From the NCBI RefSeq assembly GCF_003148885.1, contig NZ_QGHD01000030.1:1-33165 (forward strand): a DNA stretch of 33,165 nt, written 5' to 3'. Shown piece after piece: positions 2,355-30,647 of the stretch. Under the pieces are notes generated by a model. The model was not told the origin of the DNA. It saw only the letters and a program-made list of their open reading frames with translations, and did not search any database. Every line of letters begins with the position of its first letter. Position 1 is the stretch's first letter. Both the position numbers and the translations under genes were made by a program. Source of the stretch: Hallerella porci. Its GTDB lineage: Bacteria > Fibrobacterota > Fibrobacteria > Fibrobacterales > Fibrobacteraceae.

Positions 2355-3418
2355 ATGGAGAACAAAATGACAAATAAAAATTCTCGTCGCAGTCACGATG
2401 CATTTTTCCGTTGGCTTTTTGCCGACAAAAATCATCTGCGGGCGTTGTTGAAACTTTCCGCGAAATCCAATTTGGAGATTCAGCAATTTTTGGCAGCGGT
2501 TGATCCGAATACATTTGTGCGCATTCCCGATACTTATTCGAATGTGGACGAAACGGGCGAAGCCGATTTGGCGTTTCGGGTGAATGCCTCTTCGGGCGAC
2601 CACGCACTCGTCGGCGTTTTGCTCGAACACAAATCGGAGCCTGACGCAAATACGTTGGCGCAGATGAAAAAATATGTCAATTCGGTGATGAACGCTTACG
2701 CACAATCGCACAGCGCAACGCAAATTCGACCGTCGCCATTCTTTTTTACAACGGAAAAGTTCCGTGGGACCCGTACAAAAATTTTCCGCAGTATCCCGAA
2801 TATTTCCACAATCTTATTTTGCCGTTCAAAGCGGCGTTTGTGAATATGACGCAAATTTCGGACGATGATTGTTTGAAATGTGAAGACGTCGCAACGGCGA
2901 TGGGTGTAACCGCGATGAAATATGCATTTAACCGGAAAAAATTGTTGGCGATTCTTCCCAAATTTCAAAAAGCCTTAACGCAGATTCCTTACGATGAAGC
3001 GAAAAACTTGCTCGAAAAAATTAGTGTATATTTGAAGGAGTATTTGGGCGAAAGCATCCTCAAGGAGTTAGATATGGCATTCGTAAGCATCGGACAAAAG
3101 TACGGTTTCGTCAGCGCCGGCGATGTCTTTCGCCAAAGGCTCGCTGCAGGTAAAGCTGAGGCGCTTGCGGAAGGACTTTCCAAAGGACTTTCCAAAGGTC
3201 GTAAGGAAGGGCTTTCTAAGGGGCTTTCCAAAGGGCGGGCGGAAGGGCTTTCTAAGGGGCTTTCCAAGGGCCGTGCAGAAGGAATTCGCCAGGGGCTTTC
3301 CAAAGGTCGTAAGGAAGAAAAGCTTTCCCTCGCCAAAGCTTTCCGCAATAAAGGTTTTCCTTTAGAAACGATTGCCGAAGTCACCGGCCTCTCGATTGAC
3401 GAAATCAAAGCACTGTAA
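2355..3418 (+). pseudogene. Rpn/PD-(D/E)XK nuclease-family transposase-like gene, frameshifted
   Basis: Two overlapping frames together make one protein of about 350 residues. The first (2355-2843) begins NKNSRRSHDAFFRWLFAD and contains the nuclease-like stretch EADLAFRV...VGVLLEHKSEPD (Asp, then Glu-x-Lys). After codon QI near 2735 the homologous reading continues one frame over as STVAILFYNGKVPWDPYKNF and on to 3418. A 1-nt deletion (or 2-nt insertion) between about 2710 and 2740 would explain the break. The likely original start is the ATG at 2367, preceded by GGAG, rather than 2355. The C-terminal part carries tandem EGLSKGLSKGRAEG-type repeats (about 3160-3320) and ends in a short helical ETIAEVTGLSIDEIKAL segment, both typical of Rpn proteins. 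Intact relatives are recombination-promoting DNases. This copy is probably inactive unless frameshifting occurs. Confidence 0.85.
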
Positions 3419-19435: not shown

Positions 19436-20440
19436 TTGCTGTCGATTCCGGTAGAAGTTCTCGGTTGGATTTTCCTCATTGTGACGCTGTTTTTAATCCT
19501 CGTCGTCCTTGTGGAAATTAGCCGCAACAACCGACGCCGGGAAATCGGCAAAATGTTTGCCACCGAAGAATTCGACCAAAAAATTCAAGCGTTGCAGCTC
19601 ACTTCCGAAGAGCGGCAAATGCTTGAACGCTTGGTGCGTCAATCGTCTTTTTCTAACAAAGATTCCGTTCTCAATTCACCCATTCTTTTCGAAGAAGCGG
19701 TGAATTTTGTTTATAAATTGAATCACGGCGCCGAAAACATTTCGCGTCACGACCAAGAAATCATTTCGACGCTCCGCAAAAAATTGTCGCATTTAGAAAA
19801 CGCTGCATTGTATTCTTACACATCGACGCGGCAATTTGCGATAGGGAAAAATGTTTCGTTAGTCTTGCAAGAAAACAGCAAAGAACTTTCGGTGCACACG
19901 CAGATTAATCAATTAGACGAAGTCTCGTGGGGAGTGAAAAATACGAACACATTTCTCGCTGAATATCTTAGCGGAAAACGCGTAGACGTTCGCTTAAACA
20001 TTCCCGGCGAAGCGGTTTACCACGCAAATGTTCGCGTTATTCAAGTCACTTCCGATTCCATTCTCCTCGAACATTCCACGCAACTGCACAAAGAACAGCT
20101 GCGTCGTTGGATGCGTCTTGCGGTCAATTTCCCCGTGAAATTGGAATACAAAGGAAAAATCATCGAAGGATTTCTCGTCGATCTTTCTGCGGGCGGTATT
20201 CTGCTCTCGCTTCCGAACCTCATCCCTGAATCTGCGCTCGTTCAAATTCAATTTTTGCTGCCCGGATTTGGGGAAGAAAACTTGCAAGTGCGAATTTTGC
20301 GCCAACTCCACGGAGGCACGTCCGACGCTGAAACGGGAAGAATTTCGCACAGCGCATCGTTCATCGGCGATTTTGGCGAAACACAAGAACGCGTTTTACA
20401 ATATATTTTCCGCGAAAGACGTGCACAAAAAGGAACTTAA
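19436..20440 (+). CDS. Membrane-anchored PilZ-domain c-di-GMP receptor
   Basis: The start is TTG at 19436, with GGAGG (inside the end of the previous gene) 6 nt upstream. The 334-residue protein has one N-terminal membrane helix (residues about 7-28, GWIFLIVTLFLILVVLVEI), then a helical cytoplasmic linker, a YcgR-like N-domain (about 130-215) and a PilZ domain. The c-di-GMP motifs are complete: RxxxR at 223-227 (RRWMR) and DxSxxG at 249-254 (DLSAGG). It should bind c-di-GMP at the inner membrane. It is coupled to the pyrimidine genes upstream but lies just before pilM, suggesting a role in pilus or surface control. Confidence 0.9.
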   Translation: MLSIPVEVLGWIFLIVTLFLILVVLVEISRNNRRREIGKMFATEEFDQKIQALQLTSEERQMLERLVRQSSFSNKDSVLNSPILFEEAVNFVYKLNHGAENISRHDQEIISTLRKKLSHLENAALYSYTSTRQFAIGKNVSLVLQENSKELSVHTQINQLDEVSWGVKNTNTFLAEYLSGKRVDVRLNIPGEAVYHANVRVIQVTSDSILLEHSTQLHKEQLRRWMRLAVNFPVKLEYKGKIIEGFLVDLSAGGILLSLPNLIPESALVQIQFLLPGFGEENLQVRILRQLHGGTSDAETGRISHSASFIGDFGETQERVLQYIFRERRAQKGT

Positions 20441-20556: not shown

Positions 20557-21648
20557 TTGGCATTAAATCTTATCGCTAAAATCCGTGGCGAACGTCAAAC
20601 GATAGGCGTTGACATCGGCCACTACAGCATCAAAGTCGTTCGCGTACATCACGATCGCGGTAATAATTATCGTGTGATGGCGATGGATATGGAACCGACC
20701 CCCGAGGGTGCCTTCGCCGATAACGAAATTCAAGATGAAGCGAAGCTCCGCGAAGCGTTGATTCGTCTCATGACGCGGAATATTCCCGACGCTTCTAAAG
20801 ATGATTTAGTTACCGCTGTAGGTTGGTCTGCGGGAATTCTTGCAGATAAAAGCGTCGCCAAAGTCCCGAAAAACGGAAACGAAGACGCAATCGTCGTTCA
20901 GACCGCCCAAGCAAGACCTCCATTTGATGACCAAGATATTATGCTGGATTATCAAGTCATCGAACGCGATAACAAGGGCGAAGTCAAATCTCTCGTCGTC
21001 GCCGCCAAGAATAAAATTCTCTCGGATTATTCCAAACTTTTTGCTTCGTCGGGTTACAAACTGACCGCAATCGATGTCGATGTATTCGGTATTGCAAACG
21101 CTTACGTTGCAACGACTCCTGAAGATCGTTTAACCGAAACGGTTGCGCTTCTCGATATCGGCGAAAAGAAATCGACATTAACATTCCTCCGCGGAAAAGA
21201 ATTCCATTCTGTTCGGACCTTGACCAGCGGATCGGTAAGCTCTGTCATCGCAACCCTTTCCCGCCATTTGGGAATCGACGCGGCGATGTGCCACGAAATG
21301 TTTGAAAAAAATGATTTGACGATGGTGAAAGATCGCTCGGTTGCCGAAGTAGAATCGGCGCTGCAGCTCGCTTATGAAGAAGTCGTCAATTCCGTAGAAT
21401 TCGGTATCCGCTACTTCTCGAGCAGCGAATCGGGCGAAAAACCGGTGCGTTTACTCCTTTGCGGTGGCGGTGCAAATCTTTCGAATATCTGCGATTATTT
21501 GAAAGAAAAATTGTCCATTGAATGCGATGTTCTAAATCCGTTTACCCGCGTCCAATTTGATGCAGGAGTCGTGGACGAAGCGGGTCTTTCCGTTGCGTCT
21601 GCGAATATTTATACTCCCGCTCTCGGACTTGCGTTGAGGAAGTTCTAA
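20557..21648 (+). CDS. pilM: Type IV pilus assembly ATPase-like protein PilM
   Basis: The start is TTG at 20557, with GAGG 5 nt upstream. This 363-residue actin-like protein has the phosphate-1 motif IGVDIGHYSIKVV near the N-terminus, a second ALLDIGEKKSTLTFL motif, and RLLLCGGGANLSNI near the C-terminus. PilM sits on the cytoplasmic face of the inner membrane and binds the N-terminal tail of PilN, linking the assembly motors to the alignment complex. It is first in an operon where each gene overlaps the next by 1-4 nt. Confidence 0.95.
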   Translation: MALNLIAKIRGERQTIGVDIGHYSIKVVRVHHDRGNNYRVMAMDMEPTPEGAFADNEIQDEAKLREALIRLMTRNIPDASKDDLVTAVGWSAGILADKSVAKVPKNGNEDAIVVQTAQARPPFDDQDIMLDYQVIERDNKGEVKSLVVAAKNKILSDYSKLFASSGYKLTAIDVDVFGIANAYVATTPEDRLTETVALLDIGEKKSTLTFLRGKEFHSVRTLTSGSVSSVIATLSRHLGIDAAMCHEMFEKNDLTMVKDRSVAEVESALQLAYEEVVNSVEFGIRYFSSSESGEKPVRLLLCGGGANLSNICDYLKEKLSIECDVLNPFTRVQFDAGVVDEAGLSVASANIYTPALGLALRKF

Positions 21649-22259
21649 TGGCCAAGGGAAACAACAAGAAAAAACTTTGTGTAGAAATCAACCTTCTTCC
21701 GGTCGAAGATCGTAAGACAAAAGTTGATTTATCTTGGATCGTCGATCGACGCGTTGTGTGGCCGACTTTCGCATTTATCATTGCTGCGGTGGCAGTTTTT
21801 ATGCTGCAGTCGTATATTTCCGAAACGACTCTCGGCTTGCAAACGCAGTTAGAAGCGACGAAATCCGAAGTAGAAAAGCAACGTCCGATTTTGGATAAAA
21901 TCACCGCGCTCGATTCCAAGTTACAAGTCATCGCTCAAAAGAATAACGGCTTAAAGTCTATTCAGGTGAGCAAAAAGCGTTGGGTGATTCTTTTTGAAAA
22001 TATTTCGTCGATGATGCCGCCCAATATGTGGTTGCTTTCGCTCAACCAAGTGGCGCCTCTCGAAATGGAATTGCGCGGTGTTACCTATGATTTCTCCGAA
22101 GTCGCCGAATATATGGTCAAGCTCGAAAAGCAAGTGAGCATTAGTTCGGTCGTTCTGGTGGACATTGCAACAGTCAAAATGGAAGGAGAAGAAGCCTACA
22201 ACTTCGTCATCAAGGCTGGCATCAAAGCTGACCTCGGTTTGGAAGGAGGGGCGAAATAA
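21648..22259 (+). CDS. pilN: Type IV pilus alignment protein PilN
   Basis: The start overlaps the pilM stop by one base. This 203-residue bitopic inner-membrane protein carries the PilM-binding motif INLLP at residues 14-18, a membrane helix at about 37-54, and then a coiled coil and a ferredoxin-like periplasmic domain (MWLLSLNQVAPLEMELRGVTYDF). With PilO it forms the periplasmic dimer that links PilM to PilP. Confidence 0.93.
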   Translation: MAKGNNKKKLCVEINLLPVEDRKTKVDLSWIVDRRVVWPTFAFIIAAVAVFMLQSYISETTLGLQTQLEATKSEVEKQRPILDKITALDSKLQVIAQKNNGLKSIQVSKKRWVILFENISSMMPPNMWLLSLNQVAPLEMELRGVTYDFSEVAEYMVKLEKQVSISSVVLVDIATVKMEGEEAYNFVIKAGIKADLGLEGGAK

Positions 22260-22858
22260 TGCAATCCATTAACTGGAAAGACAAAAAGACCATCTATGCG
22301 ATTGTGATGTCGCTCGTCATCCTCGCTAGCGGTTATTTCGTTTACACCTATTTGTGGGAACCGTTTACTCTTGAGCAGCAACGTCTTGAAGGCGAATTGC
22401 AAAAAGCGGAATCGGAACTTTCGAAAATCAATGTGCAACGCGGACGTGTGGCAAAGCTCGAAGCGGACTTGGTCGCCGCTGAAAATGAATTTGTGCGTCT
22501 CAAGGAAATGTTCCCCGAAGACGAAAAAGTGCCGCTGCGTTTGCAGGATTTGTATGCGGTGCTTCGTAGCGCGGGCGTTCAAATTCAAAAGTTTAGCCCG
22601 AGCGGTAGAACGGAACGCGAATTTTTCGTCGAACACCGTTACTCGGTTTCGGTCAATTCCGGTTATCACATGCTCGGTTATTTGTTTGCAGAAATTGCAA
22701 ACTTCAATTATCCGACCGCGATTAACGACTTGAAAATCAGCCGTTATGCGGGAATCAAGCAGGAAATTGAAAAAGCGGAATCGCACGGTTGGACTCCGAT
22801 TACGATTACGGTTTCGTTTAACTTGACCACTTATACATCCAAGAAGGTTGCCCAATGA
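22259..22858 (+). CDS. pilO: Type IV pilus alignment protein PilO
   Basis: The start overlaps the pilN stop by one base. The 199-residue protein has a short cytoplasmic tail, one membrane helix (residues about 11-31), a coiled coil (about 36-80) and a periplasmic domain (LYAVLRSAGVQIQKFSPSG, then GYHMLGYLFAEIANF). It matches PilO by size, order and position. It pairs with PilN and holds PilP. Its stop overlaps the next ATG as ATGA. Confidence 0.92.
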   Translation: MQSINWKDKKTIYAIVMSLVILASGYFVYTYLWEPFTLEQQRLEGELQKAESELSKINVQRGRVAKLEADLVAAENEFVRLKEMFPEDEKVPLRLQDLYAVLRSAGVQIQKFSPSGRTEREFFVEHRYSVSVNSGYHMLGYLFAEIANFNYPTAINDLKISRYAGIKQEIEKAESHGWTPITITVSFNLTTYTSKKVAQ

Positions 22859-24813
22859 GAAAGTTGATGCTCCTTCTCTCGTTTGTTTCGGCGTTTGCTA
22901 CGATTGCAGTGGGCGCAGAAATTAAAAATGTGGAATATTCCTGCGGAGCCAAAGACTGCTCCCTGATTTTCCAATTTGCGTCGGCAAAAAATTTGCCCGA
23001 TTTCTTCCAAAAATACGATGCAGCTTCGCACAAATTAACCATCGGATTTTCGGATACAAAAATTTCGGCAGGCGATCTCGCTTTGGATGTGAACACTTCG
23101 TCAAAGGGCATTCAAAAAATGCGCATTGTGACCGATCGTTCTTTCAAAGTTCCTCTGCTGAATTTTGAATTTACCGTCGGCGCCGATATTCACAGCGACA
23201 AAAATCCGGTAAGCCTTTCTAAAGGAAAGAATTTTGTCATCGCACTTCCGAAGTCCAAAGCGTCTGCGTGGTCATTGAAAAAAATGATAGCGCAAGCCGA
23301 AAAGGCGGCGAAGGATTCTGCGGCGGCAAATGCAAAACTCGCTGAAAAAGCAAAAGCCGATAGCTTAGCGCAAGCGAAAAAGTTGGCTGCAAAATCCAAA
23401 GCAGATAGCGTCAAACTCGCAAAGGAAAACGCAGAAAAGTTAAAGAAGGCGAAGGTTGATAGCATCGCCGCTGCGAAAAAAGCAAAAGCGGATAGCGTAA
23501 AACTCGCAAAAGAAAATGCTGCAAAAGCGAAAAAGGCGAAGGCTGATAGCATCGCTGCTGCGAAAAAAGCGAAAGCGGACAGTGTAAAACTCGCAAAGGA
23601 AAATGCCGAAAAAGCGAAGAAAGCAAAAGCCGATAGCATCGCAGCTGCGAAGAAATTCAAAGCGGATAGCATTGCTGCAGCCAAGCAAGCTCGTTTAGAT
23701 AGCATCCGCGAAGTAAAGGAACAAGCGAATAAAAAAGTTGTTTCCGCTTTGATCGAAGGTATCCGCGAAATGACGGGCATTCAAGGCGAAGGCATTGAAC
23801 AATTCCGCATTGCGACCGCTTCGGAAATCAAACTTTCGATGGTGAAGGGACCGGACAAATCTTCACTCCTTTATGTCGCTGTTCCAGGTCCGAAGAAAAC
23901 GCCGATGTTCAATGTTGCCGCAAGCAATATCGTCAAATCGGTGACGTGGATGTCCACAGGTCTTCGCATTCAGTTGCAGAAAAATGTGCATCCGATGATT
24001 CTCGTTTACAAAGGCTCGTTGATTTTGCAAATCGCCAATAACGGCAAAAATTCTGGATTTGTTTGCTACATGGCAAAGCCCGAAGGCGTGTATGTGCGCA
24101 AGTGGGTGAATCCTTCGGAAAATGCCGAAACCTTTGCGGAATTTTCGAAGGGAATGGATAAGGATAAAAAGAAAATTGTGAGCGTCGCTCAGTCTTTTGG
24201 CCTGCGCCCGGTTTCTCGCAATTTAATCGTCGTCGCCGAGACAACTCCGTTTCTCGCTTCGCCGCAAGAAAATGCGCAGGTTTTGGAATCGTTAAACTTC
24301 GGCGATCATTTAGAAGATATCGAATTAGACGGTCTTTATCACAAAGTGCGTTTAGGTGCCAAAGTGGGCTATGTAAATCGTCGCGCGGTTTCGTTCCCCG
24401 ATGAACTTTCTGCAGTGCAAGCGGAACGCTTAAAACAAATTGCGATGGAACAAGGCAGCGGCTTGGATTCGAATTCTGTCCGCTTTGAACATCCGATTGA
24501 AGAACGCGTTTCTTACAGTTCTTTCGGACGTCGCGATCCGTTTGTAGAAATTAAAGGCCTTATGGATGAAGGCATTAACATCGACCAAGTGGAACTTGTC
24601 GGTATTATCTGGGAATCGGATATTCCGCTCGCCATTCTCGTCGATTCGAAAAATCCGAATGTTTCCTACACGGTCAAGGAAGGTGACCGCATCTTGAACG
24701 GTAAAGTCCTGAAGATTACTCAGACGGATGTGCTGTTCTTGTTACAAGAATTTGGGGTAAGCCGTAGATATTCCATGAGTCTGCCCGATCAAAATGGGAG
24801 TAACGCAAAATGA
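22855..24813 (+). CDS. pilP: Enlarged PilP: AMIN-like, Ala/Lys repeat, SH3-like and PilP domains
   Basis: At 652 residues this is several times the size of ordinary PilP. A signal peptide (residues 1-20) leads into a beta-rich AMIN-like domain (about 22-132). Residues about 145-295 are Ala/Lys/Asp/Ser-rich helix containing three 29-residue repeats (182-268). A second AMIN-like domain covers about 315-425 and an SH3-like segment about 457-515 (VVAETTPFLASPQENAQVL, then GYVNRRAV). The C-terminal PilP domain is about 557-642 (RRDPFVEIKGL, VELVGIIW, VKEGDRILNGKVLKI). It lacks a lipobox, so it is predicted to be soluble periplasmic or anchored otherwise. The long basic helix could span the cell wall to PilQ; the SH3-like and AMIN-like parts could bind peptidoglycan. 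These roles are inferred. Confidence 0.88.
   Translation: MRKLMLLLSFVSAFATIAVGAEIKNVEYSCGAKDCSLIFQFASAKNLPDFFQKYDAASHKLTIGFSDTKISAGDLALDVNTSSKGIQKMRIVTDRSFKVPLLNFEFTVGADIHSDKNPVSLSKGKNFVIALPKSKASAWSLKKMIAQAEKAAKDSAAANAKLAEKAKADSLAQAKKLAAKSKADSVKLAKENAEKLKKAKVDSIAAAKKAKADSVKLAKENAAKAKKAKADSIAAAKKAKADSVKLAKENAEKAKKAKADSIAAAKKFKADSIAAAKQARLDSIREVKEQANKKVVSALIEGIREMTGIQGEGIEQFRIATASEIKLSMVKGPDKSSLLYVAVPGPKKTPMFNVAASNIVKSVTWMSTGLRIQLQKNVHPMILVYKGSLILQIANNGKNSGFVCYMAKPEGVYVRKWVNPSENAETFAEFSKGMDKDKKKIVSVAQSFGLRPVSRNLIVVAETTPFLASPQENAQVLESLNFGDHLEDIELDGLYHKVRLGAKVGYVNRRAVSFPDELSAVQAERLKQIAMEQGSGLDSNSVRFEHPIEERVSYSSFGRRDPFVEIKGLMDEGINIDQVELVGIIWESDIPLAILVDSKNPNVSYTVKEGDRILNGKVLKITQTDVLFLLQEFGVSRRYSMSLPDQNGSNAK
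23398..23658 (+). repeat. Three 87-bp coding repeats in pilP
   Basis: Residues 182-210, 211-239 and 240-268 of PilP are near-identical 29-mers built on KADSVKLAKENA and KKAKADSIAAAKKA. Flanking sequence contains further partial units. The DNA repeats have diverged at third positions, so the array is not brand new. Confidence 0.9.
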
Positions 24814-26324
24814 ATAAAATCGTTCGTTGGATTCTGATTTCGCTGATGACGCTCAGCTTTGCTTCGGCGTTTGCGCAGGAAGCGGCTCCAAATAATAAAT
24901 TATACGACTTCCGGTTCGTGAATATGAACTTCAATGCCGCGTTCCAGTCGATTTCGACGATGGCGGGCGTGGACATTGTGCTTGCTCCGGATGTTTCGGG
25001 AAAAATTTCGAATCTTCAAGTGACGAAGAAGTCTTGGCAAGATGTGCTGAAACTCGTCTGCGACACGTATGATCTTACTTGGACGATTGAAGACAAGTAT
25101 GTCTATGTGCAGCGTTCGACCGCTTATCAAGAAAAGCAAAAACGCTTAGCGGATAAAGCGATGGAAGAAGAACGGAACGCTCCGCTCGTGCGCAAGAACT
25201 TCCAAGTGGAACACGCCAAAGCAGACGAACTCGTCAAAGTTCTCGAAACGATGAAGTCGAGCCGCGGTAAAATTACGACGGTGGAACGCACCAATTCCAT
25301 CATCGTTTACGATACCGAAAAGAGCCTTGCGCAGATGGAAAATGCGCTCGAAGAATTGGATGTGGAAACTCTCCAAATCATGATTACGGCAAAGCTCGTC
25401 GTCGTGTCTAGCGACTTAGCTCGTGAACTCGGTGTTGATTGGACTGCGAAAATGGGAACGACTGCACTTACACCGGGTGTTGCTGGAACGCCAACAGGGA
25501 GTGTTGCTGGAGCATCTCGGACAAGTGTTGCGATGCATTCCTTACCGAACAATGGCGTTTCTCCGGGCGTTACGAATGCTACGACCGCAATTTCGGCAAG
25601 TGTTTTGGATAATAATGTACAAGTTGCCGTGGCGAGCATCCTTTCGGACGCATCGACAGAAGTGCTTGCGACTCCGCAAATTTCGACGATGGATAACGTG
25701 GAAGCGCAAATCTTTATGGGCGACCAGATTTCAATCCGCGTGATCGATGATGACGGTGAATCTTCGACGAAGATGGTGGAAACCGGCATTAAATTGGTGG
25801 TGACTCCGCATGTTTCGGGCGATAACCGCATTATGTTGGATTTGCATCCGCAGAATGACTCTTACCGTTACGATGAAATGGGACAAGTTGTGATTAGTAA
25901 GCAAGAAGCCGAAACAAAAGTCGTCGTCGGCGATGGCGAAACGGTTGTTATCGGCGGCTTAACTCGTAACGAACATCAAGAAACCGAATCGGGAATTCCG
26001 TTCCTCATGGACATTCCGGTTCTCGGCAATCTTTTCAAGTACACAAAGAAAACGGTGACGAAAAACGACCTCGTCATCTTTGTGACGCCGCGGATTATTC
26101 ATAATTATGTGGGCAAATTCCCGCTTTCCGAAGCGCCGAAAACCAAGGTAGTTCCGGCGGCAGATGCAGAAAAGCAAGTTGCTCCGGTTGCAAAGCCCGT
26201 TCAAGCTCAGCCGCAAGAAGCGCAAGCTCAGCCCGCAGCAGAAGCCGCACCGCAGCCGAAAGAAGATGAAGCTGCAGTCGCGGGCGATTCAGTTCCCGCA
26301 GGAAGTGCCGAAGAAGGCTGGTAA
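24810..26324 (+). CDS. pilQ: Type IV pilus secretin PilQ (short form)
   Basis: The ATG overlaps the pilP stop as ATGA. The 504-residue protein has a signal peptide (residues about 1-22), an STN domain (about 30-105; FNAAFQSISTMAGVDIVLAPDVSG), a secretin-N domain (about 130-190), and the secretin beta-domain (about 195-435) with EVLATPQISTMDN, VVIGGLTRNE and IPVLGNLF. A Pro/Ala/Gln-rich tail follows (about 445-504). Usual PilQ carries one or more N-terminal AMIN domains and is longer; here they are absent, while the neighbouring PilP has AMIN-like domains. It forms the outer-membrane pore for the pilus. It is the last gene of pilMNOPQ, followed by a strong terminator. Confidence 0.94.
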   Translation: MNKIVRWILISLMTLSFASAFAQEAAPNNKLYDFRFVNMNFNAAFQSISTMAGVDIVLAPDVSGKISNLQVTKKSWQDVLKLVCDTYDLTWTIEDKYVYVQRSTAYQEKQKRLADKAMEEERNAPLVRKNFQVEHAKADELVKVLETMKSSRGKITTVERTNSIIVYDTEKSLAQMENALEELDVETLQIMITAKLVVVSSDLARELGVDWTAKMGTTALTPGVAGTPTGSVAGASRTSVAMHSLPNNGVSPGVTNATTAISASVLDNNVQVAVASILSDASTEVLATPQISTMDNVEAQIFMGDQISIRVIDDDGESSTKMVETGIKLVVTPHVSGDNRIMLDLHPQNDSYRYDEMGQVVISKQEAETKVVVGDGETVVIGGLTRNEHQETESGIPFLMDIPVLGNLFKYTKKTVTKNDLVIFVTPRIIHNYVGKFPLSEAPKTKVVPAADAEKQVAPVAKPVQAQPQEAQAQPAAEAAPQPKEDEAAVAGDSVPAGSAEEGW

Positions 26325-26494: not shown

Positions 26495-28330
26495 ATGGCT
26501 TCTTGCGTTAAAATAGAAAATTTGCATTTTTCAAATTCTTCTCTTCTGTTTGAAAACGGAAAGTTTTTCTGCATAAATCTTCAAGAAAAAACGTGTAAAG
26601 AAAAAATTTTTTGGAATGAAAAAAAGCGAATTGATTGTATTTTTATAGTAGAAAGCATCGTTTTGGGCTTTCTCAATTTTTGGATGTTTAAGGAAGCGGA
26701 AATGCACTCTATTTTGGTTGGAATTCAGTGTCTCGGAATCGCAATTTTAGCGGGTGAATTGGTGTATGCAAAATTGCATGCGCCGTCTTCTAATCAGAAT
26801 TATATGTCGGCGTTTATTGCGTGCACTTTCATGGTCTTTGTCGGCTATTTAATTGAAATGACTGCGACCACTGTCGATGTGGCGTTAATCGGGAAAAAAA
26901 TTAGTTACTTGGGAAAGCCTGCAGCTATTCTTTTGCCCGCATTTTTTGTCGCAAAAATTTGCAAAGTGAAAATCCCGCAAGGAATTAAAATTTCGCTGTT
27001 TCTTTATTCGGTGATAATTATTCTGATGGCGGTGACTTGTAATTATCATTATCTCTATTATACAAGTTATGCGCTGGACACGAGTGGGGTAGTTTCAAAG
27101 CTCAAAACGACGCCCGGAATTTTTTATCACAGTTTTTCGGTTTTAACAATCGGGGGAATTCTTTTTACGGCGGGAGTTTTGGTGCGCGCATTTCGCCATG
27201 TGAAAAGTTCTTGGGAAAAAGACAAACTTTTATTGATTTGTTTCATTCCTTTGGTGGGAATTCTTTGCAAATCGGTGTCGATGAGCGGAATTCTCGGCGA
27301 TTTTGATATTTCGTATGCGGCTTCTTTAGTAAGCTCCCTTTGCTTGTTATTATTCTTTGCCAAGTACAGCATTTTTGATGTGGTCGCCTTGAGCAAAGAC
27401 GCCGCCTTCGATGAACATCCGAGCGGATTTGTCGTTTTGGATAAACGCGATCAAGTCGTCTTAAAAAATAAAATGGCGATGAAACTTTATCCCGAAATTT
27501 TTGAACGCTTCGGACCCGATGACATTATCAAAAAATTGAAATCGCTGAGCAATCAAACTTTTAGTTTGCCGTCAAATAAAATTTTACGCGTAATCATTTA
27601 TCCGATTGTGAAAAAAGGAATGGAACGCGGAAATGTCATCGTCTTGCGCAATGTAACGGAAACGCAGACATATCAACATCGCTTAGAAGTGGAAGTGCGA
27701 AACCGCACCAAAGAAATCAAAGATTTGCAGCGTTCGGTGATTATGGCTTTTGCGAATGTCGCTGCAGTGCGAGATGTTTGCCCGCAAGATCATGTTAAAA
27801 ATACGAGTGAATGCGTCGAAGTCATCGCGAAAAGTTTGAAAGCGCATGGCGATTACGCAGAAATTCTCACGGACGAATATATTGCGAATTTGAAAAATGC
27901 AATGCCGCTGCACGATATTGGAAAAATCGCAATCTCGGATTCGATTTTGAAAAAGTCATCTGCATTAACGGATGCCGAAGTGGAAATTTTCAAAACGCAC
28001 ACGCAAATCGGCGCCAGACTTTTGGAAGAAAATTTAGCGGGATTGGAAGATGAAAATTTTGTCCGCATCGCCAAAGAAATTGCGAAATATCATCACGAGC
28101 GTTGGAATGGTAACGGCTACTTCGGCATGAAGGGCGAAGAAATTCCGTTGAGTGCGCGCATTGCGGCAATCGCCGATAGTTTTGATTATTTAATTGCCAA
28201 TCCGCAGTTTGCAAAAACAATGACCCAAGAAGAAGCGGTTCAAAAAATTCAAGTGCTGCGAGGTGCTGATTTTGAACCGTGCATTGTAGATGCTTTCGTG
28301 CGGGAAATTTCAACGATTTGGAAAAGTTGA
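26495..28330 (+). CDS. Membrane HD-GYP-type c-di-GMP phosphodiesterase (GYF variant)
   Basis: This 611-residue protein has an N-terminal region with about seven to eight membrane helices (residues about 47-300), a PAS-like domain (about 305-390), a coiled coil (about 390-415) and an HD-GYP domain (about 420-611). The metal residues are present: H433, H473-D474 (LHDIGKI), H502 (THTQIG) and HHE at 533-535. The hallmark GYP is GYF (541-543, WNGNGYFGMKGEEIPL). It probably hydrolyses c-di-GMP in response to a membrane or extracellular signal. A weak promoter (TTTTCG at 26431, TATACT at 26453) lies upstream. The next gene starts 22 nt later, so both form an operon. Confidence 0.85.
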   Translation: MASCVKIENLHFSNSSLLFENGKFFCINLQEKTCKEKIFWNEKKRIDCIFIVESIVLGFLNFWMFKEAEMHSILVGIQCLGIAILAGELVYAKLHAPSSNQNYMSAFIACTFMVFVGYLIEMTATTVDVALIGKKISYLGKPAAILLPAFFVAKICKVKIPQGIKISLFLYSVIIILMAVTCNYHYLYYTSYALDTSGVVSKLKTTPGIFYHSFSVLTIGGILFTAGVLVRAFRHVKSSWEKDKLLLICFIPLVGILCKSVSMSGILGDFDISYAASLVSSLCLLLFFAKYSIFDVVALSKDAAFDEHPSGFVVLDKRDQVVLKNKMAMKLYPEIFERFGPDDIIKKLKSLSNQTFSLPSNKILRVIIYPIVKKGMERGNVIVLRNVTETQTYQHRLEVEVRNRTKEIKDLQRSVIMAFANVAAVRDVCPQDHVKNTSECVEVIAKSLKAHGDYAEILTDEYIANLKNAMPLHDIGKIAISDSILKKSSALTDAEVEIFKTHTQIGARLLEENLAGLEDENFVRIAKEIAKYHHERWNGNGYFGMKGEEIPLSARIAAIADSFDYLIANPQFAKTMTQEEAVQKIQVLRGADFEPCIVDAFVREISTIWKS

Positions 28331-28352
28331 GTTGGCGAATGGAGTTTGCGTT

Positions 28353-30647
28353 ATGTTAACAGTTTACTTTGTAGGTATTTTGATTTTTCTCGGCGTCATG
28401 AATTGGATGGCGTTTGGCGTTGTCAAACGGAAATCCGTTGTGCTGAAAACGCTGTGGAATGTGGTTTTGTTCATCAATCTCGTCGTAATTTCGAGCGTCC
28501 TTTCGACATTTATTCCGAATCATTTTGCGGCGGTGTTCTCGCGGAGCGTGCATTATATCGCAACGCAGTGGATGCTTTTTTATGTGCTGCTTTTCTTTGA
28601 ACGTTATACGAAAAAATCCGAAGATTATAAATACGTTCGTCGAATTACTTTTGTCGTTTCAATTATCAATAGCGTTTCGCTTTTGCTCAATCCATTCTTC
28701 GGGCACATCGTCATCGGTGAATGGACGCAATCTATATCGGGAATGTCTTTTTGGGAATTTATCAATGTAAAACCTGGCTATTACATTTTCCATTTTATTT
28801 ACATCACAATTCTTTCGCTGTTTATTTTCTTGAGTTTAATTCATCGTGTGGTAATCGCATCGCAGCATACTCGTATGAAATATATGACGACTCTCGTTTT
28901 AATTTCGTCGAGCATTCTTCTCGAAGTGATTGCATCGTATCGCAGCGAACATCTTTACGATTATCCGCTCTTTGCTTATATGCTTTCGATGATTTTAATC
29001 ATCTATTATGCACTTTGTTATGTGACAAAATCTGTCGTCGAAAAAACGTTGACGCAGATTATGCTCGAAACCGATATTGGAACAGTTTGCTTCGACGCCG
29101 AAGAAAAATGCATTTACGCAAACGATGCGATGAAAAAAATTTACGGCGAAAAAATGAAATTAAACGACTACGAAGAAATTTGTAAAACGGATTTATTCGG
29201 CGTTTCCTTGAATAAGCAAATCGAAAAATCTTTTGAAAAAGAAGTTGTCACGCCTTTGGGAAAACGCTATTTCGATGTTTCGTTCCGCAAATTAAAAGAC
29301 GAACATGGAAATGATATCGGCTGTTATTTCTTGTATCAAGATAAAACCGCCTTTATGAAAAAAGCGCTTGACGATTGCTATCGTTTAACTCACGACGAAA
29401 TCACCGGATTTTATAATCGTCGCCGTTTCATTGAAATCGTAGACAAAAATCATCGGCGTCATCGCGATGACGAATATTACATTGTCTGCACCGATATTAA
29501 AGATTTTAAACTTTTGAACGATCTTTTTGATCGCATCACCGGAAACGATGTGCTGCGGAGAATGTCGGAAATTTTTGCAGAAATTATGCCGAAAAGTGCA
29601 GTTTGCGCAAGGCTTCAGAGCGACCGTTTTGCGTTCTATTTGAAAAAAGATGAATTTAATCGTTTAAAATATTTGAATGCGATTGGGACCATTTCTAAAC
29701 TCCTTGCCGAAAAAGATTATCAGATTCTAGTGCACACGGGAATTTACGAAACGAAGGGCTGCGAAGAATCCGCTTCGACGATGTGCGATCGCGCGCACAT
29801 GGCAATTTCGCTCATCAAAGAAGATTACAATAAAAAAATTTCGTTCTATGATAAAAAATTCTTGGTGACGGCGCTCCGCGAAAAACGTTACACGAGTGAA
29901 TTTGAAGTGGCACTTTCTAAGCGGCAATTTAAAATGTATTTGCAAGCGCAAGTGACGCCGAACGGAAATGTCTGCGGCGCCGAAGCGCTTGTGCGTTGGA
30001 TTCATCCTGAAAGCGGACTTATCCCGCCGTATGAATTCATCAGTGTTTTTGAAAAATCAGGATTGATTCATAAATTGGATTTATTTATTTGGGAAGAAGC
30101 GGCGAAAAAATTAGCGGAATGGAAAAAAGAAGGCCGCGACGATTTGCATATTTCGGTGAATATTTCGACGAAAGATTTTCAGCATTTGGATTTATTCGCC
30201 ACATTTACGAATCTTGTGCGCAAATATGGAATTTCTCCGCAAAAATTAAAGTTGGAAATTACAGAAAGTTCGATGATGTTGGATTTGGAAAAGCAACTTT
30301 TGCTGATTGATAAACTGCAAAATTTCGGATTTGACATTGAAATCGATGACTTTGGCAGCGGCTATTCTTCGCTCAATATGCTCAAATCGATTCACGCCAA
30401 TGTGCTGAAATTGGATATGGGATTTTTGCGCAATATCAAAGAAGTCGATGCTTTGCGCGCTAAAGATATTTTGAAATCGACTGTCAATTTGGCAAAGGTT
30501 TTGAAAATGACGGTGATTACCGAAGGCGTTGAAACTTTGGATCAAGTTGAATTTTTAACGCAAGCGGGCAGCGATTATTTCCAAGGTTATTATTTTGCAA
30601 AGCCAATTTCTGTCGGCGACTTTGAAGAAAAATTCTTAAAACAATAA
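28353..30647 (+). CDS. 7TM-PAS-GGDEF(degenerate)-EAL phosphodiesterase
   Basis: The start ATG at 28353 has GGAG 9 nt upstream; an in-frame ATG at 28290 lies inside the HD-GYP gene and is rejected. The 764-residue protein has seven membrane helices (residues about 1-226, like histidine-kinase N-terminal 7TM domains) and a PAS-like domain (about 235-335). A GGDEF domain (about 340-500) has QSDRF (422-426) in place of GGDEF and so is presumably inactive. The EAL domain (about 510-762) has its catalytic residues: E544-A545-L546, N603, E635, DDFG 665-668, K686, E724 and Q744. It should degrade c-di-GMP. It pairs in an operon with the HD-GYP protein. Confidence 0.9.
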   Translation: MLTVYFVGILIFLGVMNWMAFGVVKRKSVVLKTLWNVVLFINLVVISSVLSTFIPNHFAAVFSRSVHYIATQWMLFYVLLFFERYTKKSEDYKYVRRITFVVSIINSVSLLLNPFFGHIVIGEWTQSISGMSFWEFINVKPGYYIFHFIYITILSLFIFLSLIHRVVIASQHTRMKYMTTLVLISSSILLEVIASYRSEHLYDYPLFAYMLSMILIIYYALCYVTKSVVEKTLTQIMLETDIGTVCFDAEEKCIYANDAMKKIYGEKMKLNDYEEICKTDLFGVSLNKQIEKSFEKEVVTPLGKRYFDVSFRKLKDEHGNDIGCYFLYQDKTAFMKKALDDCYRLTHDEITGFYNRRRFIEIVDKNHRRHRDDEYYIVCTDIKDFKLLNDLFDRITGNDVLRRMSEIFAEIMPKSAVCARLQSDRFAFYLKKDEFNRLKYLNAIGTISKLLAEKDYQILVHTGIYETKGCEESASTMCDRAHMAISLIKEDYNKKISFYDKKFLVTALREKRYTSEFEVALSKRQFKMYLQAQVTPNGNVCGAEALVRWIHPESGLIPPYEFISVFEKSGLIHKLDLFIWEEAAKKLAEWKKEGRDDLHISVNISTKDFQHLDLFATFTNLVRKYGISPQKLKLEITESSMMLDLEKQLLLIDKLQNFGFDIEIDDFGSGYSSLNMLKSIHANVLKLDMGFLRNIKEVDALRAKDILKSTVNLAKVLKMTVITEGVETLDQVEFLTQAGSDYFQGYYFAKPISVGDFEEKFLKQ

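Follow-up and report, generated by a model that had tools for sequence, protein, structure and literature searches.

An enlarged PilP in the Fibrobacter class and its possible role as a wall anchor of the type IVa pilus machine

The pilP-like gene of Hallerella porci encodes a protein of 652 residues, in which a C-terminal PilP homology region follows three additional folded domains, the first two of them separated by a long charged helix. The enlargement is shared with relatives in the class that contains the cellulose digester Fibrobacter, and the PilQ secretins of this class lack AMIN domains at every locus that we inspected. We lean slightly toward the explanation that PilP in the Fibrobacter class serves both as the usual link between PilO and PilQ and as an anchor to the cell wall.

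The pilus machine is wider than the pores of the wall, and its anchoring and placement call for an explanation; the accepted clue, albeit with exceptions, is the presence of AMIN domains on the secretin (PMC10653833). In Pseudomonas aeruginosa, the AMIN domains of PilQ bind peptidoglycan and are required for recruitment of the machine, and the PilP homology region contacts the N0 domain of PilQ (PMC5285504). In Myxococcus xanthus, polar PilQ requires its AMIN domains, and a survey of ten species linked secretin AMIN domains with polar pili, again with exceptions; the AMIN domain of AmiC binds the septal wall (PMC10653833). For Fibrobacter, Table 4 of PMC4704652 includes PilM, PilN, PilO and PilQ but no PilP, and the pilus gene set has been termed incomplete (PMC3079729). 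The enlarged size of PilP may explain its absence from these inventories. We found no description of an enlarged PilP from the Fibrobacter class in the open-access literature.

The pilP locus

The DNA analyzed, referred to in the following as the window, is a stretch of 33,165 nucleotides from H. porci (contig NZ_QGHD01000030.1). It includes a pilM-N-O-P-Q cluster, of which the five genes and the PilP features described below are on the forward strand. The product of pilM (20557–21648) matched Pfam PilM_2 (E = 2e-38) and scored over the cut-off for TIGR01175, pilN (21648–22259) matched Pfam PilN (3e-12), and pilO (22259–22858) matched Pfam PilO (2.5e-12). The 504-residue PilQ secretin (24810–26324) was identified by Pfam and by NCBIfam TIGR02515 (6.7e-81), and comprises a signal peptide, an N0 domain, one Secretin_N domain and the secretin domain. 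Between pilO and pilQ, the list of open reading frames has a frame at 22855–24813, exactly as in the original prediction of a PilP expanded to 652 residues. It is joined to both neighbors by 4-base ATGA overlaps, one between the end of pilO and the start of pilP and the other between the stop of pilP and the start of pilQ. The window protein had no match in Pfam, even at an E-value of 1, and the NCBIfam scan gave nothing useful; its assignment as PilP therefore needs its fold, its relatives and its position.

The pilM-N-O-P-Q order is repeated among the relatives, where a PilZ-domain gene usually precedes pilM. In the window, this gene is found at 19436–20440, just upstream of pilM, and most loci of the class have it at the corresponding position, raising the possibility of a c-di-GMP link to the pilus machine. 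Directly after pilQ follow 7TM-HD and 7TM-GGDEF-EAL signaling genes (26495–30647). Elsewhere in the window there is an intergenic tandem array between open reading frames at 1418–1912, with 12 copies of a 41-bp unit and 90% matches, and a 36-bp/12-bp tandem repeat at 3169–3317.

Conservation and distribution

A protein search matched 35 of 41 related genomes, one of them a one-contig genome (G002). A search across GTDB genomes yielded 79 loci, labelled without exception as Fibrobacter, Fibrobacterales, Fibrimonadales or otherwise Fibrobacterota. Every one of the 79 contains an open reading frame with the RDPF motif, and in 75 the N-terminus is complete. These full-length relatives range from 379 to 694 residues, with a median of 617, and include that of the isolate F. 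intestinalis ATCC 43854 (L031). In class-level relatives from three further families, PilP is 468–774 residues long and the gene order is unchanged.

The original prediction had pointed to a sequencing fusion of two genes as an error that might lie behind the long protein. The contigs of some relatives do end inside the repeat described below, but the same frame is open in the 75 full-length relatives, which come from independent projects and include ATCC 43854 and the one-contig genome, and an assembly fusion, for which the chance is practically nil, was rejected because the frame is conserved in independent assemblies. The long PilP is not a sequencing fusion, nor is it peculiar to this locus. 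The contigs that end within the Ala/Lys repeat belong to several metagenome-assembled genomes (L033, L034, L061 and L064), suggesting that this repeat probably breaks short-read assemblies.

In a genome from another class of the phylum (G094), PilP is a 157-residue protein (L149) with an N-terminal membrane segment and a weak T2SSC/PilP match, encoded inside its own pilus cluster. Since the relatives within the class are long and this one is of ordinary size, we place the enlargement within the class containing Fibrobacter, with the other classes represented in this comparison by that one genome. When the PF04351 profile was run over 121 genomes of the phylum, it found the small form in G094 alone; the control genomes also had no match, so the profile is useless for a survey of length. 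Outside the phylum, the size of PilP was judged from Escherichia coli HofP (134 residues), the 172-residue M. xanthus chain and published papers.

Neither an enlarged PilP nor a PilQ of the window type was found in four genomes of one genus of the class (g13); as both proteins are missing, these genomes say nothing either way. One genome labelled Fibrobacter succinogenes (L105, RUG14205) has a divergent pil operon resembling the one in G025, which belongs to another family of the same taxonomic order, and its species label is therefore probably wrong.

Domain organization of PilP

The protein consists of a signal peptide, a β-sandwich at residues ≈22–133, an Ala/Lys helix, a second sandwich at 300–417, an SH3 domain at 455–515 and the PilP/GspC region at 551–645. 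An AlphaFold2 model built from a 49-sequence alignment had confident domains at ≈21–131, 303–417, 456–508 and 579–642, a long helix of lower confidence at 141–293 and a disordered stretch at 536–570. Structure prediction, which had been proposed as a check on the AMIN and SH3 folds, thus yielded folded domains.

Residues 1–21 (22855–22917) form a predicted signal peptide of the signal peptidase I type. Among 76 N-termini, 68 have Ala or Gly at position -1 together with a small residue at -3, and the uncharged run has a median length of 15. The absence of a lipobox, previously noted for the window protein, was borne out: its first cysteine, at position 30, lies beyond the predicted cleavage region, and a lipobox scan found no convincing lipobox in the 75 other full N-termini.

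The C-terminal assignments are solid. When the whole model was compared with the PDB by Foldseek, PilP came first (3jc8, 3.5e-4), followed by 2lc4, and 2y4y was matched with a TM score of 0.71. The model of another protein, from the Fibrimonadales, again matched 3jc8, 2y4y (TM 0.74), 2lc4, 2ivw and GspC (3oss), as well as SH3 structures. The best match of a C-terminal profile in the PDB was M. xanthus PilP (E = 0.036). The window protein did not match Pfam PF04351, and 7 of 49 relatives matched it weakly (best 0.036), with L148 at 0.01; we take this score as a matter of detection threshold, the assignment being carried by fold and locus. The region covers residues 551–645 (24505–24789) and includes the invariant RDPF motif. 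It is C-terminal, as predicted, and is nearer to 95–100 residues than the 85 or so first given, comprising the DPF segment at 554–563 and a β-sandwich at 576–645.

The presumed SH3-like segment is a bacterial SH3 domain, at residues 455–515 (24217–24399). The modeled fold matched 2krs (TM 0.71) and 9ovi (TM 0.77) by Foldseek, along with SH3-bearing wall peptidases. The window protein itself had no match to an SH3 profile; Pfam SH3_3 (SH3b, PF08239) was matched in 33 of 49 relatives at E-values up to 1 (best 3.3e-6), and the class-level relative L145 exceeded its gathering score, with 34.4 bits against a cut-off of 27.

The two sandwich domains had both been called AMIN-like, which is weakly supported for the first. 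Domain 1 (residues 22–133; 22918–23253) was modeled with pLDDT mostly above 90, and the whole model matched AmiC (4bin) with an E-value of 0.053 and a probability of 1.00, over 124 columns with an rmsd of 4.8. Domain 1 and the helix are naturally absent from the Fibrimonadales protein, and AmiC was not among the first 50 Foldseek matches for its model; by subtraction, the AmiC match is assigned to domain 1. Pfam AMIN (PF11741) was matched in a single relative (E = 0.007–0.015), and among 11 domain-1 segments one matched at 0.0072. Comparison by hhalign gave no significant match of domain 1 to a small profile of true AMIN domains or to domain 2. An AMIN identity for domain 1 is plausible, under a weak label. 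Cys30 is kept in 39 of 41 sequences and Cys35 in all 41, and in the model both are located at the ends of neighboring strands, which suggests a disulfide bond.

Domain 2 (residues 300–417; 23752–24105; pLDDT mostly above 82) is a β-sandwich for which no AMIN match was obtained by profile or by fold comparison, leaving an AMIN identity unproven. By Foldseek, its likeness to small heat-shock sandwiches, though weak, exceeds that to AMIN, and such sandwiches were also matched in the Fibrimonadales model where domain 2 should be. One profile match involving domain 2 was discarded as circular, as it came from two alignments that both held domain-2 sequences of close relatives.

The linker helix (residues 141–293; 23275–23733) is composed of 153 residues, 32% Ala and 27% Lys, with a net charge of +24. 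Its hydrophobic period is 3.66 residues (≈11/3), with a borderline peak of 15.8 against a 95th percentile of 15.6 in shuffled sequences. The 29-residue repeats described previously were recovered by TRF as an 87-bp unit in 3.2 copies at 23391–23670, with 82% matches. If straight, the modeled helix would be ≈23 nm long; pLDDT spans 50–90 overall and is 50–65 over most of the length, and the helix may be discontinuous. Among the relatives, the linker ranges from 46 to 195 residues, and in some (L093, L075) it is a Pro/Glu/Lys sequence instead of an Ala/Lys helix. In two families (f3 and f5), the Ala/Lys stretch is positioned between SH3 and PilP, and in the Fibrimonadales, which have only domain 2, SH3 and PilP, it is missing together with domain 1. 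Given this variability and the low pLDDT, spanning of the wall by the helix is only a possibility. The linker looks like a spacer, in which presence and length would count rather than sequence.

The repeat also has a counterpart elsewhere in the H. porci genome. A 501-residue FKBP-type peptidyl-prolyl isomerase with a lipoprotein-like N-terminus (G000:C24:3002–4504, in L150) bears at its C-terminus an Ala/Lys/Asp-Ser repeat of the PilP type, with 75% DNA identity over 264 bp, which is at least as close to the repeat of the window PilP as are the PilP repeats of congeners.

A freely variable linker, and a similar repeat in an unrelated lipoprotein, would be expected if the expansion were mostly neutral, with a fast-growing low-complexity linker and accreted domains on an ordinary PilP of unchanged function. 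We consider this improbable: the folded domains retain 30–50% identity across genera, with near-invariant residues that include the two cysteines, and the order of SH3 followed by PilP is maintained in most families of the class. At the same time, no added module is universal, since the Fibrimonadales lack domain 1 and the linker, and one family (G028/G030) gave no SH3 match.

Wall-binding domains in PilQ and other proteins

The PilQ N-termini inspected ranged from Fibrobacter to the f3 family. In all of them, N0 begins within a few tens of residues of the signal peptide, and no AMIN domain was found in PilQ at any class locus inspected. Complete PilQ proteins are mostly 416–545 residues long. 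A search with Pfam AMIN over 168 genomes of the phylum, which divergent AMIN domains such as PilP domain 1 would escape, gave matches in three genomes: two amidase-like proteins and a protein of G040, none of them a PilQ. The G040 protein (L152, G040:C49), from another class of the phylum, is a stand-alone tandem AMIN protein of 315 residues with a C-terminal hydrophobic segment. The lack of AMIN domains in PilQ, a point missed in the original prediction, is what lends the wall-anchor explanation most of its weight.

The H. porci genome also encodes a LysM protein of ≈389 residues (G000:C1:28013–28147, L157), for which the best PDB matches were 6ve2_O and TsaP in 3jc8, with E-values of ≈1e-12. 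PilP therefore need not be the sole anchor. This protein also supports a different explanation, in which the TsaP-like protein does the anchoring and PilP does not bind peptidoglycan, its added domains being protein-binding modules that lengthen and stiffen the link from PilNO to the secretin or recruit other envelope proteins. Domain 2, with no evidence for an AMIN fold, would fit such a role, and SH3 folds bind peptides as well. On the other hand, domain 1 and SH3 are of types often tied to wall binding or to wall enzymes, as seen in the matches to AmiC and to SH3-bearing wall peptidases, and PilQ itself carries no wall module. We regard protein binding without wall binding as possible but rather doubtful. 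A wall anchor on PilP and a TsaP-like LysM anchor may also both be operating.

Discussion

We propose that the enlarged protein is the PilP subunit of a type IVa pilus machine. The C-terminal homology region would bind the N0 domain of PilQ and, together with PilN and PilO, align the inner- and outer-membrane parts, while the exported modules, namely the AMIN-like sandwich, the second sandwich, SH3 and the variable charged helix as an adjustable spacer, would tether this link to peptidoglycan. The added modules would thus take over, on the PilP side, the task that in Pseudomonas and Myxococcus falls to the AMIN domains at the N-terminus of PilQ. More tentatively, wall binding and positioning may have shifted from the secretin to PilP across the class, with PilP first recognizing the wall and setting the site of pilus assembly. 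If so, the rule by which polar pili go with AMIN-bearing secretins fails in this class unless PilP is counted. In a lineage that combines an AMIN-free secretin with an AMIN-like and SH3-containing PilP, nature provides a test of whether the pore itself has to carry the wall module.

With the PilP of other type IVa pili (PF04351; PDB 2IVW, 2LC4 and 3JC8), the window protein has in common its place in the operon, its C-terminal fold and the DPF motif region, and the PilO–PilQ link is predicted for it as well. It differs in length, ≈650 residues against 172 for the 3JC8 chain and 134 for E. coli HofP, in its three additional folded domains and its long charged helix, in falling below the Pfam cut-off and in having no lipobox. 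A lipobox is typical of the studied proteobacterial PilP proteins, whereas Thermus PilW and the 157-residue form from the other class are likewise not lipoproteins. In Pseudomonas and Myxococcus, the same machine carries its periplasmic AMIN modules on PilQ; here, an AMIN-like module is on PilP and PilQ has none. TsaP represents anchoring of the pilus secretin through peptidoglycan as well, but is a separate LysM protein. In TonB and TolA, too, periplasmic domains are set apart by a long Ala/Lys helix or a Pro-rich spacer; PilP, however, lacks their membrane anchor and energy-coupling partner, and is likened to them as a spacer by resemblance. GspB/OutB and GspC of type II secretion are also homology-region proteins that contact the secretin. 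They belong to another machine, have other extra domains and use a transmembrane segment as their inner-membrane anchor, but OutB, like the PilP proposed here, both touches the secretin and is attached to peptidoglycan (PMC9239104).
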